Assembly (NCBI RefSeq): GCF_900128985.1
Contig: NZ_FQUC01000003.1
Location: forward strand, 248,001-312,000
DNA length: 64,000 nt
Reading direction: 5' to 3'
Source: Indolivaga macrotermitis
GTDB taxonomy: Bacteria > Bacteroidota > Bacteroidia > Bacteroidales > Dysgonomonadaceae
Shown: piece after piece, positions 22,006 through 30,059 of the stretch
How positions within the stretch are numbered: position 1 is the first letter of the stretch
Layout: each line of letters begins with the position of its first letter
Translations under genes and position numbers: made by a program
Notes under the pieces: generated by a model
Database searches by the model: none
What the model was told of the DNA's origin: nothing
The model's input: the letters and a program-made list of their open reading frames with translations, nothing else

Positions 22006-23436
22006 ATGAAAAAGTTTGTTTACAGTCTCTTTTTTCTAATAACTTTTGTCTCCAGTTTTTCATTATCAGCTAAGTCGGATTTTGTAAAAGCCGATTTAGA
22101 GTTACAATATTTTTCTCCAAGGAGAAAGTTATTAATGAAGGATTCATTAACGATAATAGACAAAAATCGTCCTGATACAGCTTTTATATATACGAGAGGC
22201 GCCAACGGATTGATAGAGATGCCTCAAAATAACTGGACTCCGTTTCCTTATAACGTAAGTTTCAGGGATACTGTAATATATAATCCTGCTTATCTCCCAG
22301 TTGTATTCGATGGAAAGATACTTCCACCCGATCTCGATTTTATGTCAAAGTCGACAGGGTTCCCTTCTGCACCATTGCAACTCATACCCGAAGACAGTAC
22401 ATTTGTCCCGACTCTGAAAAGACTAGAGCAGGTTCAGTTATTGCGCCGGGATTTTTATACCAATATGAATAATATAGAGAATGTACGGTATAATGCTTTT
22501 ACACTGAAAAAACTGCCACAGATTAATCAGGATGAAGTAACAAAGCGGAATATCCTGCATGATTTAATCACGGCCGAAGATCCTATAACAGTAGCTCCTG
22601 TTGAACTGCCTAAAATTGCGCCTAAATTTATCTACTGGACTTATAATGGCGAGCACCAATTACAGGCGACACACAATTTTATTTCGGATAATTGGTATAA
22701 AGGCGGAAATAGAAGTTTCTATATTGTAAATAGTCATAAACTTTATTTGAATTATAAGAAAGATAAGTTATCATTTCAGAATACTTTTGAATGGAGATTA
22801 AATATAGCGCAGGTTCAAGCTGACAAGGTTAATAAATATAGTGTGAATGAAGATTTAGTCCGTTTAATAAACACCTTAGGTTATAAGGCCTTCAATAATT
22901 GGGAATATACAGTTAAGTTAGAAAGTCAGACACAGTTATTAACGAATCATCCAATAAACTCAAAAGATAAAACAACTTCATTTCTTTCTCCTTTAACAGA
23001 AAACTTTGCTGTCGGTATGAAGTATTCTAAGGAAAAGGCATTTGCAAGCGATAAGTATAAGAAATTGGCATTCTCTATAAACTTATCACCTACCTCTTTG
23101 AACTATATTTATATAAGAGACAATGAGATAACCAACAGGCAGGGAATTGCAGCCGATAAGCACTCAAAATTAGAGTTTGGTTCTACTATAAACGCTGATC
23201 TCAAGTTTACATTCAACCGTTTTACGACATGGACATCTCGATTTAAATATTTTACCAATTACGAGAAAGCACAGATGGAATTTGAGAACAGCTTTAATAT
23301 GCAGTTAAACCGATTCTTTTCCGTCAATACTAATGTATACCTACGATTCGACGATACAGGAAAAAAAGGGGAAGGCGATTGGGGTTATTTCCAGATGAAT
23401 GAGATCTTGAGTTTTGGTTTATCCTATAACTGGTAA
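22006..23436 (+). CDS. DUF3078 outer-membrane protein
   Basis: The protein has a signal peptide (about 1-22), a linker of about 180 residues, and from WTYNGEHQLQATHNFISDNWYKGG a DUF3078 region of alternating strands that ends in LSFGLSYNW, an outer-membrane-barrel type C-terminus. Members are conserved in Bacteroidetes with no settled function. The gene is monocistronic and followed by tRNA-fMet on the same strand. Its length of 476 is at the long end owing to the N-terminal linker. Confidence 0.82.
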   Translation: MKKFVYSLFFLITFVSSFSLSAKSDFVKADLELQYFSPRRKLLMKDSLTIIDKNRPDTAFIYTRGANGLIEMPQNNWTPFPYNVSFRDTVIYNPAYLPVVFDGKILPPDLDFMSKSTGFPSAPLQLIPEDSTFVPTLKRLEQVQLLRRDFYTNMNNIENVRYNAFTLKKLPQINQDEVTKRNILHDLITAEDPITVAPVELPKIAPKFIYWTYNGEHQLQATHNFISDNWYKGGNRSFYIVNSHKLYLNYKKDKLSFQNTFEWRLNIAQVQADKVNKYSVNEDLVRLINTLGYKAFNNWEYTVKLESQTQLLTNHPINSKDKTTSFLSPLTENFAVGMKYSKEKAFASDKYKKLAFSINLSPTSLNYIYIRDNEITNRQGIAADKHSKLEFGSTINADLKFTFNRFTTWTSRFKYFTNYEKAQMEFENSFNMQLNRFFSVNTNVYLRFDDTGKKGEGDWGYFQMNEILSFGLSYNW

Positions 23437-23551: not shown

Positions 23552-23624
<73 letters not shown>

Positions 23625-23636
23625 CTAGAAAGAAAA

Positions 23637-23662
23637 GCAATCGAAAAATCGGTTGCTTTTTT
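23637..23662 (+). terminator. Terminator of tRNA-fMet
   Basis: GCAATCGA (23637-23644) pairs with TCGGTTGC (23649-23656), with one T-G pair, around AAAA, and a T6 run follows. Confidence 0.85.
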
Positions 23663-23770
23663 GTTTTGAATTAATTGATTGAGAAGTTTAATAAAATTAT
23701 TAATTACCGATATAACACTTAAAGAAAGGTCTTTCTTTGTAAATAATTATTTTGTCATAGTCATCAGAAT

Positions 23771-24231
23771 TTAAAAAGGGTACTTATTATATGTGTATAT
23801 TTGTCCTGATTCATCAATATAACTATGGCTAACTGTTTCAAGAATATCTTCTGCCGAATAACCATCGGGCATGTCTAAGAACTCTGTGTGAAAAGTAGTA
23901 CCAAAAACCTATATTTACATCATCTTTCATTTTACCAACAAAACAAGTCCAATTCATGGTTAATGTCTTCTTGTATTTGCCTTAAAGTTGAAATAGGGAA
24001 AGCATATTGGCTTTTTTCTATCTTAGCAATATCATATCCGTTTAAGTGGCTCCCTTTAGCCACAAAAGATTTTTCAATATCATAATAACCCATCCCTGAG
24101 CTTTTACTAAAAATCCCATCTCCTGTTCTTTATTTTTTTAGTCTCTTTATTGCTAAATTGACTATCTTAGATGGACTTCTAAAAATAGCATAAGGCAAAT
24201 AAGCGCCACAGATGTCTATATTCAAGCCCAT
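23771..24231 (-). pseudogene. Broken small gene or two overlapping broken frames, function unknown
   Basis: Reading the minus strand from an ATG at 24231 gives MGLNIDICGAYLPYAIFRSP and a stop at codon 34 (24130-24132). The same frame then continues with coding-like text (YDIEKSFVAKGSHLNGYDIAKIEK, here shown only in part) to a stop at 23932. A second frame from 23957 gives MNWTCFVGKMKDDVNIGFWY and needs a shift of one base near 23880 to continue as EFLDMPDGYSAEDILETVSH and reach a stop at 23771. The pattern looks like one or two decayed genes of about 60-150 codons. I do not recognise a family; size and placement resemble immunity-type orphans but this is a guess. Confidence 0.4.
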
Positions 24232-24697
24232 AGAAAAGATCAACAGAAAGGAGGAGAAAAATTGGGATAGACTAGATTCCAGTCTTTATGTTTTTTAGTT
24301 TAAAATAATATTGAATCAGGACTTCTATTTTATCTTTTCTCATTTACAGCGTAGAGTTGAATAATACACTCAGAGAATACGAATAACTTTTTTATAAAAA
24401 GTTTATTATGAAGTTGTTTTATGAGAAAAACAGAAAAAAAACTTGGAATTTATTTATTATTTATTAATATTGTAAGACGATTTACAAAACTATAATTACT
24501 TAATCAGACAAAGATTTCGACAACACAAAATAGTGGTATTATCTTTATTCATTTAATTATTTTTTATGGCAGCTTTTACATAACAGTGTGCTAATGTAGA
24601 AAATTATATTAAAAGAATAGAGATCAATAATCGATCTATATTTACAAAATTTCAAAGTGCATTTATTGCATAAAACACAAATTTAAACTTTACTAAA
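24232..24697. other. Gene-free AT-rich stretch before the metzincin-like pair
   Basis: I see no supported gene. The only suggestive site is TATATTTA at about 24638, one mismatch from the -7 consensus, about 55 bases before the first lipoprotein gene. It may be the promoter of the two-gene unit. Confidence 0.4.
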
Positions 24698-26482
24698 ATG
24701 AAGAAGAATCCATTTTTTATGGTGCTGTTCACTCTGGCATTATTAATCTCCTGTGCAGATGCAGATGAAAGGTATGCTCAAGAATCTTCGGAAACGCAAG
24801 CTTCTAATAGAGCAAAATATGTTTTTGCCTACATAACGGATTTGGAAAACAATTTACTTACTACAAGGGCAACATCTCTGAATGGTAAGACTTGGAACAG
24901 CGGATCTACGATTCGCATCAAGTTTTTGAATGGCAGTAGTTTCGCACAAAATAAAGTAAAAGAGGTTGCTGCAGAGTGGCTTAATTACGCAAACCTGAAA
25001 TTTGAGTATGTAGATTCATCCGAAAATGCAGATGTTAAGATTGCGTTTCATTGGAATAATGAGCAGGTATCATGGTCTTCGATAGGAATCGATTGTAAAA
25101 GTATTGCACAGAATGTACCTTCTATGAATATTATGTTATTTGATGAGAATGATTCAAACGAAATTAATTCAGAAGATTTTGCTGCTATTATTTTAAGAGA
25201 ATTCGGACATGTATTAGGGCTTGTATTTGAACACCAAGGCCCTGATTCGAAATTCAACTGGAATGTCGCACGTGTCAGGAATTACTTTTTGGCACAAGCA
25301 TGGACTAGTGCTCAGATAGATAACCTTCTAACAATTTACAATACTTCGCAAACCAATTATTCCCAGTTTGACGATGAATCTATTATGTTATTATATTTTC
25401 CTGATTTTTTGACAACAGATGGAAAAGGGTCGAAATGGAATTCCAAGTTATCGGAAATGGATAAAGAATTTATTAGTACACTTTATTCCGGAAAACCAAT
25501 TGAGATTCCTCACACAGTAAATCTTAAATATACACAGGATAATGGTACTACCAACTATCAATATACAGGAGTTCGTGTTGGTGAATATTATTGGGTAAAC
25601 AACAATTTTTACCATCAGGTTCCCGGAGCTTGGGAAAATAGTTATCCCATAACACAGGCGCGTTTGGATAAATACCTGCCATGTGCACGTCTGGATATAT
25701 CGCAGTATCAGATAAATATCGCAGATTTTGAGAGATACTACGGTATTTATTATTGTAGGGCAAGCGTAGATTATATGTCACAAAACGGTAAAATGTTTGA
25801 AAATCAAAATACTATCGCATCAAATTGGGAATTACCCTCTGCTGTAGATTTTCAACAACTATTTGCTATGTGTCCTTTTTCTGTCAGTACAGACGAAGTT
25901 CTGAGAGAAGCTGATGTCCGTTTTGCCTTAAGTCCAAAATTAAATGACAATCCTCTTGCATTTAATATTTCAGATCCTACAGGTGGTCCATATAGAACTT
26001 ATTGGTTTATGACTGGTGACAATATTGATATTTATGATTTTAATATGATGCCTGGCGGAGCAAAGCTTAATGGTACTACAAATTGGAACAATGGAGTAGA
26101 TGATCCGCATCCCGGAGTTATCGGCGATATATATCATTTGTTCTATACAGTTGGTTATTATACAAAAGAATCGAATGTATACATACATGATTATCTGGAT
26201 ACTAAAAATCCATATAGCTATCATTGGTTCAACGTTCGCTGGTGCCGTAAACTAACAGATGCAGAACTTGGCTATAAACTATATATTAATGGAGCTCAAA
26301 CGGATATAAAGAAACTTGCACTAACAGAAGCTGTACCATCTGGATATTCAGAATTGGCAAAAGGTTATATTCGAGGATTTTATGTGCAATATATTTTAGA
26401 TAATCCTTCACCTGTATATACAGTTTCGGACATAGTAAGGCTGGCTGGAAACGTATCAGATCTCACTAAAAACAACTGGTAA
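24698..26482 (+). CDS. Lipoprotein with degenerate metzincin domain and FISUMP-like C-terminal domain (first paralogue)
   Basis: The lipobox is LISC (Cys19). Residues about 60-270 resemble astacin-type zinc proteases (WNSGSTIRIKFLNGSS, then the active-site region, then the Met-turn-like DDESIML). In a working enzyme the motif would be HExxHxxGxxHE; here it reads REFGHVLGLVFEH, so His167 is Arg and His177 is Phe, while Glu168, His171 and Gly174 remain. Two of three zinc ligands are lost, so protease activity is unlikely. The C-terminal half (about 280-590) looks like the Fibrobacter-type FISUMP domain (GVRVGEYYWVNNNFY, RWCRKLTDAELGYKLY). The next gene is a paralogue of the same layout 45 bases downstream. 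Confidence 0.75.
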   Translation: MKKNPFFMVLFTLALLISCADADERYAQESSETQASNRAKYVFAYITDLENNLLTTRATSLNGKTWNSGSTIRIKFLNGSSFAQNKVKEVAAEWLNYANLKFEYVDSSENADVKIAFHWNNEQVSWSSIGIDCKSIAQNVPSMNIMLFDENDSNEINSEDFAAIILREFGHVLGLVFEHQGPDSKFNWNVARVRNYFLAQAWTSAQIDNLLTIYNTSQTNYSQFDDESIMLLYFPDFLTTDGKGSKWNSKLSEMDKEFISTLYSGKPIEIPHTVNLKYTQDNGTTNYQYTGVRVGEYYWVNNNFYHQVPGAWENSYPITQARLDKYLPCARLDISQYQINIADFERYYGIYYCRASVDYMSQNGKMFENQNTIASNWELPSAVDFQQLFAMCPFSVSTDEVLREADVRFALSPKLNDNPLAFNISDPTGGPYRTYWFMTGDNIDIYDFNMMPGGAKLNGTTNWNNGVDDPHPGVIGDIYHLFYTVGYYTKESNVYIHDYLDTKNPYSYHWFNVRWCRKLTDAELGYKLYINGAQTDIKKLALTEAVPSGYSELAKGYIRGFYVQYILDNPSPVYTVSDIVRLAGNVSDLTKNNW

Positions 26483-26527
26483 AAACAGGCAACAAACTTA
26501 CTTAAACACAATTAAAATTAAAGAAAA

Positions 26528-28357
26528 ATGAAAAAACAACTCTTTTTCGTAGTGCTTTCTATGTTGGCACTATTGTTAGGCACATCTTGTTCGCAGGATT
26601 TGGAAACTATCGGAAGTACCGATGTAGGTGGCATAGCAGCTGATTTAAAAAATAATTATGTATTTGCATTAAAACCAACTACTCAATCGGGTATTGAAAC
26701 AAGAGCGTCTGTTAATAAAAATTATCGGTGGGATAATTATTCAATAATAAACATTGCCTTCCTTAATGGGAGTACGATTGCTCAGAATAAAGTGAAAGAG
26801 ATTGCACAGGAATGGCAGAAACTTATTAATCTAAAATTTGTCTATACGACAGATATATTAGATGCAGATGTTAAGATAGGCTTCAAATACAATGGAGATC
26901 GTGTAAACTGGTCATCTTTAGGTACTGAATGTTGGGACTATTGGGGTACAGACGAGCCTACAATGAATATACTCTTAAATGATGAGAACAGTGCTGCCGA
27001 ATTAAATACGGAAGACTTTTCAGGAGTTGTTCTAAGGCTATTCGGTCATATGCTTGGTCTATTATATGAACATCAGGGACCGAATGCAGCTCTAAAATTA
27101 GATGAAACTAAAACATATGCGTATTTCAAACCTTTTGGATGGACTGAAGATGCTATTGACTCCTATATATTAAAGCTATACAATACAAAACAAGCTAATC
27201 CAAGTACACCTGTGTACGACGAAAACTCAATAATGAATCTATTTATACCTTCGCATTTAGCTGCTAGTTCAGATAATACAACGGGAACTAATAGATATAT
27301 AACTGTGCTTTCGGACATGGATAAAGAGTTTATCGCTTCTATATATCCAAGACCAGAGTATGTACCTGGTGCCGAAGGAAGTGTATATCTTGTTATTCCT
27401 ACCGGAGAAAATGGTGGATATGGCCTTTTAGGTTGGAATTTCGATACTGAAACACAGCAGGCATGGGGTAATATTGAAAAAACATATAAGACAATAGAAG
27501 TCGGGGAATATGTTTGGACAGCAGAGAATCTGAAACTCAAATATTGGAATCTTTGGTCTACCCTATATGAATTTATGAATCATACCCAAGCGAAAATAAA
27601 TACAGTAACTGGAACAAATAATGTCTATACAGTAAAGCAATTCGAGGATGTTTTCGGAACGTGGACTAATTGTTATCAAGAAGCTAAGTTTTATAAAGAT
27701 AAATTCAAGTTCTATACAATCAAAGGAGGAACTGAGATTCAAGGATTTAATTTGCCTGATAAAAATGATGTTCTTCAACTGATAGGACAAATGCCGATTA
27801 AGACAGGCAATATGTACAAAGATTTTATAGACTTTACTTTTGCGAACACAGATGCAGTAAAAAAACTAAGTAGCAATTCGATCGCTGATCAAAATCTGAC
27901 TTTTGGTTCTCCGTATATCTCCAACTCTAGTAATACATCTCAATTGAATCTGACTCCTCTGGGTTTCAAAGGTAACGAACCCGATGATAGTGGTCAACAT
28001 TATTCATTCGGATATGGACTTGGATTGCAGATGAGAGAAGACGGCAGGATGCTTTATGCTGGAGATATAAGTGGGCTTGTTGTTAATCAGTATTTGTATC
28101 ATTTCTGCCAGGCTAGGTATTGTAGACAGATGACAGCTACTGAACGTGGTTATGAGTTATACATTGATGAAGCAAATGATCAGGTAGTTGCAAAAAAGCC
28201 AGCACAAAGTGCAACAGGCCTTACTATTCTGCCAATAGGTTTGGAGAGGGGAATTGCCTTGCGTAGCTTTATTAAGGATGATATGATTGTGATCGACTCA
28301 TGGAGTTCGATTAAGGCAGAAGCAGCACGAATAAGAGCTTCTATTAGCATCCAATAA
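26528..28357 (+). CDS. Lipoprotein with degenerate metzincin domain and FISUMP-like C-terminal domain (second paralogue)
   Basis: The lipobox is LGTSC (Cys21). The protein is colinear with the previous one: IINIAFLNGSTIAQNKVKEIA, then the site RLFGHMLGLLYEH. Against HExxHxxGxxHE, His170 is Arg, the catalytic Glu is Leu171, and His180 is Tyr; only His174 and Gly177 are kept. It is therefore more degraded at the active site than its partner, yet the open frame is intact over 609 codons, and the Met-turn-like NSIMNLF is retained. The C-terminal part has the FISUMP signature (IEVGEYVWTAENLKLKYWN, then ARYCRQMTATERGYELY). A binding or structural role is inferred; possibly a decoy or adhesin at the cell surface. 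Confidence 0.75.
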   Translation: MKKQLFFVVLSMLALLLGTSCSQDLETIGSTDVGGIAADLKNNYVFALKPTTQSGIETRASVNKNYRWDNYSIINIAFLNGSTIAQNKVKEIAQEWQKLINLKFVYTTDILDADVKIGFKYNGDRVNWSSLGTECWDYWGTDEPTMNILLNDENSAAELNTEDFSGVVLRLFGHMLGLLYEHQGPNAALKLDETKTYAYFKPFGWTEDAIDSYILKLYNTKQANPSTPVYDENSIMNLFIPSHLAASSDNTTGTNRYITVLSDMDKEFIASIYPRPEYVPGAEGSVYLVIPTGENGGYGLLGWNFDTETQQAWGNIEKTYKTIEVGEYVWTAENLKLKYWNLWSTLYEFMNHTQAKINTVTGTNNVYTVKQFEDVFGTWTNCYQEAKFYKDKFKFYTIKGGTEIQGFNLPDKNDVLQLIGQMPIKTGNMYKDFIDFTFANTDAVKKLSSNSIADQNLTFGSPYISNSSNTSQLNLTPLGFKGNEPDDSGQHYSFGYGLGLQMREDGRMLYAGDISGLVVNQYLYHFCQARYCRQMTATERGYELYIDEANDQVVAKKPAQSATGLTILPIGLERGIALRSFIKDDMIVIDSWSSIKAEAARIRASISIQ

Positions 28358-29477: not shown

Positions 29478-30059
29478 ATGAAAAAGAATCGTTTTTATTT
29501 ATTGATGGCATGTATATTCCTATTCACGGGAGCAGTAAACACTATGCAGGCTCAATCTGTTTCAAAGATATTTAAATCGGCAGTTAATCATTTCTCGTCT
29601 CTGGATCTCGAAGGTACCTGGGTATACCAAGGAGCAGTCGTTCAGTTTGAATCAGACAATTTATTGAAAAAAGCGGGAGGAAAAGTCGCTGCTGCAAGTT
29701 TAGATAAAAAAATCAATGATCAATTGAACAATATTGGTTTTCAGGCGGGAGTAACAGTTTTTACATTTAATGCCGATAGTACATTTACAAATACTACAGG
29801 AGGCAAAAAGATGAGTGGTAAATATACCTATGATAGTAATACTAAATATATAACATTGAAATATCTGAACCACGTTCCTTTAAAAGCAAAATTGTCGGGA
29901 TCGGGTGATAGTGTTTCATTATTGTTCGAAGCAAATGGATTCCTGTCTATGATAACATTCATAGGAGGTCATACCGGCATATCTGCCGTCAGTAGCCTGA
30001 ATTCGATATTAAAATCGTATGATGGTATGATGGTGGGAATGGAGCTTAAGAAGCAATAA
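29478..30059 (+). CDS. DUF4923 lipocalin-like exported protein
   Basis: After a signal peptide ending near MQAQ, the protein has the LDLEGTWVYQGAVVQFESDNLLKKAGG opening and the FTFNADSTFTNTTGGKKMSGKYTYD strands typical of DUF4923, a lipocalin-like family common in Bacteroidales with no known ligand. The length of 193 residues is normal. A strong terminator follows. Confidence 0.8.
   Translation: MKKNRFYLLMACIFLFTGAVNTMQAQSVSKIFKSAVNHFSSLDLEGTWVYQGAVVQFESDNLLKKAGGKVAAASLDKKINDQLNNIGFQAGVTVFTFNADSTFTNTTGGKKMSGKYTYDSNTKYITLKYLNHVPLKAKLSGSGDSVSLLFEANGFLSMITFIGGHTGISAVSSLNSILKSYDGMMVGMELKKQ

Follow-up and report, generated by a model that had tools for sequence, protein, structure and literature searches.

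Two adjacent genes of Indolivaga macrotermitis, here called A and B, probably encode paralogous, lipid-anchored pseudo-astacins, in which a protease-derived domain would serve as a non-catalytic scaffold that binds something, presents exchangeable C-terminal modules, or does both. They lie in a stretch of 64,000 nucleotides (NCBI RefSeq assembly GCF_900128985.1, contig NZ_FQUC01000003.1, positions 248,001 to 312,000), which as a whole is referred to as the window. The dead domain is conserved across related species while the part attached to it is swapped, which speaks for a role in binding or display rather than for an enzyme. The genes are arranged in tandem, head to tail on the + strand, with complete frames separated by 45 bp, and their products are 32% identical along almost their full length (E 8e-71). 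Their features, in window coordinates, are the following.

24698..26482, + strand: gene A, predicted lipoprotein with a pseudo-astacin domain, 594 amino acids (aa) (open frame; myroilysin homology, E 1.6e-34).
24698..24754, + strand: putative signal sequence of A, to the lipid-attachment Cys19 (sequence reading; Cys in 17/17 dead rows).
24875..25486, + strand: putative pseudo-astacin domain of A, approximately residues 60-263 (phmmer range 59-264).
25196..25234, + strand: former zinc motif of A, REFGHVLGLVFEH, residues 167-179 (sequence, alignment, and codon reading).
25379..25393, + strand: Met-turn of A, SIMLL (228-232), with Leu232 in place of the zinc-ligand Tyr (alignment).
25487..26479, + strand: C-terminal module of A, distantly FISUMP-like, with stand-alone relatives and a mosaic history (Pfam scan, hhalign, trees).
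26528..28357, + strand: gene B, predicted lipoprotein with a pseudo-astacin domain, 609 aa (open frame; myroilysin homology, E 3.1e-28).
26528..26590, + strand: putative signal sequence of B, to the lipid-attachment Cys21 (sequence reading).
26711..27352, + strand: putative pseudo-astacin domain of B, approximately residues 62-275 (phmmer range 49-275).
27035..27073, + strand: former zinc motif of B, RLFGHMLGLLYEH, residues 170-182 (alignment and codon reading).
27227..27241, + strand: Met-turn of B, SIMNL (234-238), with Leu238 in place of the zinc-ligand Tyr (alignment).
27353..28354, + strand: C-terminal module of B, sub-threshold FISUMP-like (19-22 of 33.9 bits) and homologous to the module of A.

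The initial annotation had recognized a metzincin-like scaffold with a SIM Met-turn in both proteins. This assignment is borne out and can be made more precise, since sequence comparison supports a myroilysin-like astacin, a narrower class than metzincin. Among solved structures, phmmer matched myroilysin with both A (E 1.6e-34) and B (E 3.1e-28), and a profile of ten relatives reached it at E 2.6e-54. The Pfam models Matrixin and Astacin detected only weak similarity, below their cut-offs (for Astacin on A, E 0.13 and 12.4 of 22.5 bits). In the search of solved structures with B up to E 1, neuraminidases also appeared as candidate relatives and were rejected: their eight rows, over residues 244-337, are at chance level (E 0.52-0.86), while the three myroilysin rows are significant.

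Astacins are described in PMC9848320 as carrying the motif HExxHxxGxxH, a family-specific Glu right behind it, and a Met-turn, SIMHY, in which the Tyr ligates zinc. With myroilysin (M12A; PDB 5gwd, 5czw, 5zjk), A and B share homology over a domain of about 205 residues, the astacin-specific Glu, the SIM Met-turn, and the second His ligand (His 2). Unlike myroilysin, they lack the Tyr ligand and have kept one His ligand out of three, and B has also lost the catalytic Glu; both have an added lipid anchor and C-terminal module, and in A the next Cys after the lipid Cys19 is Cys133.

The zinc regions read LREFGHVLGLVFEHQ in A and LRLFGHMLGLLYEHQ in B, and the Met-turns SIMLLY and SIMNLF, respectively. 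When A is aligned to myroilysin, R167 occupies the position of His 1, E168 that of the catalytic Glu, H171 that of His 2, and F177 that of His 3, with E178 as the astacin-specific Glu and M230 as the Met of the Met-turn; the equivalents in B are R170, L171, H174, Y180, E181, and M236. Instead of the HExxHxxGxxH of active astacins, A has RExxHxxGxxF and B has RLxxHxxGxxY. The loss of two of three zinc ligands from both proteins, as originally annotated, is confirmed by this alignment, as is the change of the catalytic Glu, retained in A, to Leu in B. A further loss that had gone unnoticed affects the Tyr zinc ligand of SIMHY, two residues after the Met, which is Leu in both (L232 in A, L238 in B).

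Whether these losses are peculiar to two genes can be judged from their relatives. A ten-row profile (A2) was run against 101 genomes of the family, 393 drawn from the order, and 395 from the phylum, scoring the best candidates of each genome (up to 25 in the family, up to 6 in the order and phylum), and the counts of members are to be read as minimum values. The family yielded at least 17 matches in 7 of the 101 genomes: 16 have Arg at ligand 1, one (L054) is of another kind, and none has a fully intact site. From the order came at least 12 matches in 8 of the 393 genomes. Six of these are the genes of I. macrotermitis and of genome G005 again, three are intact, and one, from a genome of another family (G311), is a further Arg-type member; G199/L064, whose motif is cut at its beginning, was left out of the intact count, and G442/L065, without a zinc motif, was dropped. 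The phylum gave at least 18 matches in 15 of the 395 genomes at E 1e-15, namely three genes of I. macrotermitis itself and 15 intact ones.

In total, there are 17 distinct Arg-type members, one member with four His (HHHH), and 18 others with a readable full motif, all 18 intact. Every Arg-type member, hereafter also called dead, combines Arg at ligand 1 with the loss of ligand 3 and of the Tyr, and all three profile matches of the I. macrotermitis genome belong here. The active-site table, with 17/17 Arg-type members altered and 18/18 homologues with a full motif intact, supports the description of A and B as adjacent pseudoproteases. The initial annotation had also named an outcome that would speak against it, that intact motifs be the rule and A and B the exceptions; among close relatives this is not the case (0 of the 17 family matches fully intact), and outside them intact motifs are the rule. 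The HHHH member L054 (genome G034) reads HHFGHALGLEHEH, with all three His kept, the Glu changed to His, and Leu at the Tyr position, and is possibly a zinc-binding, non-catalytic intermediate, or else a separate loss. Its protein (G034:C66:1147-1959) stops after the domain.

More distant astacins are also found in the family. The Pfam Astacin model matched in 9 of the 101 family genomes and in none of the six genomes of the genus, and five of its nine loci (L035, L038, L039, L042, L043) have an intact HExxH, so that distant intact astacins exist within the family; profile A2 either missed these distant astacins or matched them weakly (best E 1.2e-5). No HExxH was read at L036, L037 (a frame with stops), L040, and L041. 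Two of them, L040 (G052) and L041 (G063), score above the Astacin cut-off without an HExxH found by the motif pattern, and are possibly further altered astacins. Elsewhere, a named genome collection gave one relative among six pattern matches, in the metagenome-assembled Dysgonomonas genome UBA10850, and viral contigs none among 211 pattern matches. Plasmids gave 13 records whose M12-type domains are distant, each covering less than 80% of the query. The literature searches made, which covered openly licensed papers, found no paper on the Arg-type pseudo-astacin family.

A tree of 34 rows (16 active, 17 Arg-type, and the HHHH member) was computed with the five active-site columns removed; it omits L087 and L088, which are close to L086, the truncated L064, and the distant astacins from the Astacin-model search. 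A and B fall within a clade of ten dead members that have kept His 2 (support 99/99), which supports the shared dead ancestor originally suggested for them. The remaining seven form a second clade (support 99/100), which has Gln or Met in place of His 2, Trp in place of the Tyr, and no catalytic Glu. Left unconstrained, the tree requires the ligand 1 site to change twice, and forcing all 17 Arg-type rows together costs 6.2 log-likelihood units (lnL) and is not rejected by the approximately unbiased (AU) test (p 0.204), so that one or two origins of the Arg both fit. Branches are long for several of the active rows. The HHHH member clusters with one of the active rows (91/85), and may therefore represent a separate loss.

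The dead domain is maintained rather than being a local accident or a product of decay, as judged from the codons and substitution patterns of the 17 dead rows and of seven gene pairs. Sixteen columns do not vary among the 16 active rows. Of these, the five that belong to the active site (ligand 1, Glu, ligand 2, ligand 3, and Tyr) are kept in 0, 9, 10, 0, and 0 of the 17 dead rows, and the other 11 in 15-17 of them. The family-specific Glu and the Met of the Met-turn (E178 and M230 of A) are kept in 17/17. Less strict columns, conserved in 13-15 of the 16 active rows, include several that have changed in dead rows, two of them (columns 124 and 172 of A) in all 17. The column of R167 is the only one conserved in at least 16 of the 17 dead rows with a residue absent from every active row. 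This Arg is encoded by five kinds of codons (AGA 3, AGG 1, CGC 3, CGT 9, CGA 1), and their spread over both the CGN and AGR blocks indicates that the residue was kept while its codon drifted.

Strong purifying selection points in the same direction. The maximum-likelihood ratio of nonsynonymous to synonymous substitution rates (omega, dN/dS) of the domain is 0.053 between A and the A of UBA10850 (dN 0.098, dS 1.83), 0.014 and 0.008 in two further A pairs, 0.022 between the B genes of UBA10850 and G020, and 0.103 between B and the B of UBA10850. An omega of 1 was rejected for the domain in all seven pairs (2 delta lnL at least 107), and the long intact frames are thus under selection, as had been supposed. 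The domain combines lost catalytic residues, retained fold residues, and purifying selection, as expected of a pseudopeptidase. The domain is also better conserved than the C-terminal module in most pairs.

The C-terminal part had been annotated as a fused FISUMP-like domain. The module itself is present in both proteins, and hhalign shows the two versions to be homologous (98.8%, E 1.4e-16), but the FISUMP label stays below cut-off in B (PF09603, 19-22.3 of 33.9 bits; TIGR02145, 19.1 of 41.65), and A gives no Pfam match in this part. The likeness to FISUMP proteins (PF09603, TIGR02145) consists of this sub-threshold similarity of the C terminus of B and of some relatives of A; the difference is that the scores lie under the curated cut-offs wherever a score is given. 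A comparison by hhalign of the B module with a FISUMP-hit protein of the same genome gave no support (0.1%), and a sequence search up to E 5 found no solved relative of the A module.

Relatives of the A module are also encoded on their own, as lipoproteins that lack the protease-like domain, with 32-44% identity to A and its orthologues. One of them lies in the I. macrotermitis genome at C3:85179-89022 (L005, L007, L008, L010, L069), near a 941-aa frame on the opposite strand that matches parts of the module. Two neighboring stand-alone copies on one strand are found at G005:C1:3479567-3481708 (L021, L025), with 45% and 40% search identity to A; these two loci overlap, the same sequence having been taken from both in the comparison. 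The dead domain, in turn, is joined to other C termini: DUF285 in L006 of the same genome (E 1.8e-19) and in L029 (E 1.5e-33), and leucine-rich repeat (LRR)-like sequences, recognized by eye, in L026, L028, L047, and L048; a Pfam scan of two of these four found nothing.

The A-B tandem is present in four genomes, those of I. macrotermitis, UBA10850 (same coordinates as G004 C525), G005, and G020, with gaps of 45, 38, 12, and 25 bp. Among the flanks read, the neighboring genes differ between genomes, and no gene besides the pair is shared among the flanking frames identified. The two halves of the A genes, and likewise of the B genes, have different histories. Compared in 30-residue steps, A is nearer to the A of UBA10850 in 8/8 steps over residues 1-240 and nearer to that of G005 in 7/8 over residues 271-510. 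In the C-terminal tree, uniting A with the A of UBA10850 was rejected (AU p 8.8e-52), while uniting it with those of both UBA10850 and G020 was not (p 0.219), which limits the mosaic claim to A versus the A of UBA10850. In the domain tree, uniting A with the A of G005 was weakly rejected (p 0.033). B shares 55% identity with the B of UBA10850 in the domain and 25% in the C terminus, against 49% and 51% with that of G005. The C-terminal modules thus vary separately from the dead core. The locus itself offers no explanation for the exchange: the repeats are short and imperfect, and no search for recombinase genes was made.

The lipoprotein signals of A and B were read by eye from the N terminus, and the Cys is present in 17/17 dead rows; the Pfam model LPAM_1 gave a weak match in two relatives only. 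The surface export of lipoproteins in Bacteroidota is associated in PMC5080379 with a signal of acidic residues after the Cys. Starting from the lipid Cys, and again by eye, the residues are CADADE in A and CSQDLE in B, acidic without strictly matching the consensus motifs of that paper, and both proteins are likely to be located on the surface of the outer membrane.

Taken as a mechanism, the astacin domain would have lost catalysis before the tandem spread among relatives, and would then have been kept as a folded, non-catalytic scaffold, presumably with neither zinc nor peptidase activity. The Arg would sit where the zinc used to be, and in members of the A/B clade it may form a pair with the Glu, which most of them retain. 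The lipid anchor, likely at the cell surface, would carry the pseudo-astacin module, which should no longer hold catalytic zinc as astacins do, and the emptied cleft, the C-terminal module, or both might bind a peptide or glycan. The outer C-terminal module would be the part varied between species. The constraint on the pseudo-astacin module and its new Arg makes it probable that its cleft or surface has a binding partner, or else that it associates with the other protein of the tandem. The binding, adhesion, or decoy role raised in the initial annotation is likewise hypothetical. A more far-reaching version, which is rather unlikely, holds that Arg replaced ligand 1, perhaps twice independently, and now takes the place of the zinc ion, so that a formerly secreted protease became a lasting receptor scaffold on the surface, with FISUMP-like, DUF285, or LRR-like modules swapped onto it and A and B acting as a pair.

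Several observations weigh against A and B as non-catalytic binding or display scaffolds. In the A/B clade, H171 is kept in 10/10 members, the His two positions past ligand 3 in 7/10, and E168 in 9/10, and the mostly kept His residues make a rebuilt metal site possible there. Synonymous divergence (dS) is saturated in most pairs, and in two of the seven domain pairs it ran to saturation in the estimate, leaving omega estimable in five. Constraint extends to the C-terminal parts (omega 0.016-0.11), and these values do not support adaptive or diversifying variation of the modules. Lastly, AlphaFold2 models from a four-row alignment reached a mean predicted local distance difference test (pLDDT) of 42.4 for full-length A and 46.7 for its domain, too poor for a fold search.

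It is doubtful that the dead domain is a mere rigid spacer, holding the C-terminal module off the membrane and binding nothing. The occurrence of the same domain with the unrelated DUF285 and LRR-like C termini would suit a spacer, as would the existence of C-terminal modules alone as lipoproteins. However, a spacer needs no fixed Arg, and here the residue is found in 17/17 members with five codons; the greater conservation of the domain relative to the module in most pairs argues against it as well.

Regulation or shielding of an active protease by the pair, as inhibitor, decoy, or pseudo-subunit, is improbable. Such regulation is described as common among pseudopeptidases (PMC11266112), but no intact sibling is present among the matches of the own genome, all three dead, nor did the Astacin model find one in the six genus genomes. 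The partner may in this case be a host, prey, or unrelated protease. Inactive metallopeptidases, such as the inactive ADAMs treated in PMC11266112, resemble A and B as inactive homologues kept by selection; the pseudopeptidases in the parts of that paper drawn on here are animal proteins, with astacins mentioned once, whereas A and B are bacterial and lipid-anchored, derive from an astacin, and carry an invariant Arg at ligand 1.

It is improbable that the domain has remained an enzyme, whether by working without a metal or by having rebuilt a site for one, and that it might be a glycosidase like SCO6992 (AbsR1). The NCBIfam model for the AbsR1 beta-glucuronidase (NF050131) gives a distant match across the metzincin domain of both proteins (E 1.5e-13 and 2.4e-20), SCO6992 is reported to have beta-glucuronidase activity and no protease activity (PMC9705864), and H171 and the nearby His persist through most of the A/B clade. 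The scores of 50.5 and 72.9 bits, on the other hand, are about a tenth of the 650-bit cut-off for membership, and SCO6992 is described as retaining three His, a Tyr, and zinc binding (PMC9705864), a set that A and B lack. Two ligands and the Tyr are missing in 17/17 members, and the sister clade of seven, having also lost His 2 and the Glu, retains no ligand at all, which makes an altered enzyme unlikely. As a separate observation, the domain modeled by NF050131 is of metzincin type, and its zinc motif is intact (SCO6992); a single paper underlies the enzyme claim, and metzincins may come to inherit the name.

Decaying protease pseudogenes, which the missing catalytic residues might suggest, are hardly credible, as decay is contradicted by frames that stay open over some 600 codons, by identical losses across several species, and by strong purifying selection.

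Pseudopeptidases have been described mostly from animals. Here, a small bacterial set forms a graded series from secreted protease to non-enzymatic lipoprotein, comprising the intact relatives, L054 with three His and neither Glu nor Tyr, the Arg clade with His 2, and the clade without any ligand. For such pseudo-astacins, automatic names such as matrixin, M12 metallopeptidase, or beta-glucuronidase would mislead.

Upstream of A and B lies a tRNA-Met gene (23552-23625), and the interval of about 1 kb between it and gene A (23626-24697) holds no frame of at least 80 aa. Nearby genes encode a DUF3078 protein (22006-23436, E 2.1e-19) and a DUF4923 lipocalin-like protein (29478-30059, E 5.5e-48).

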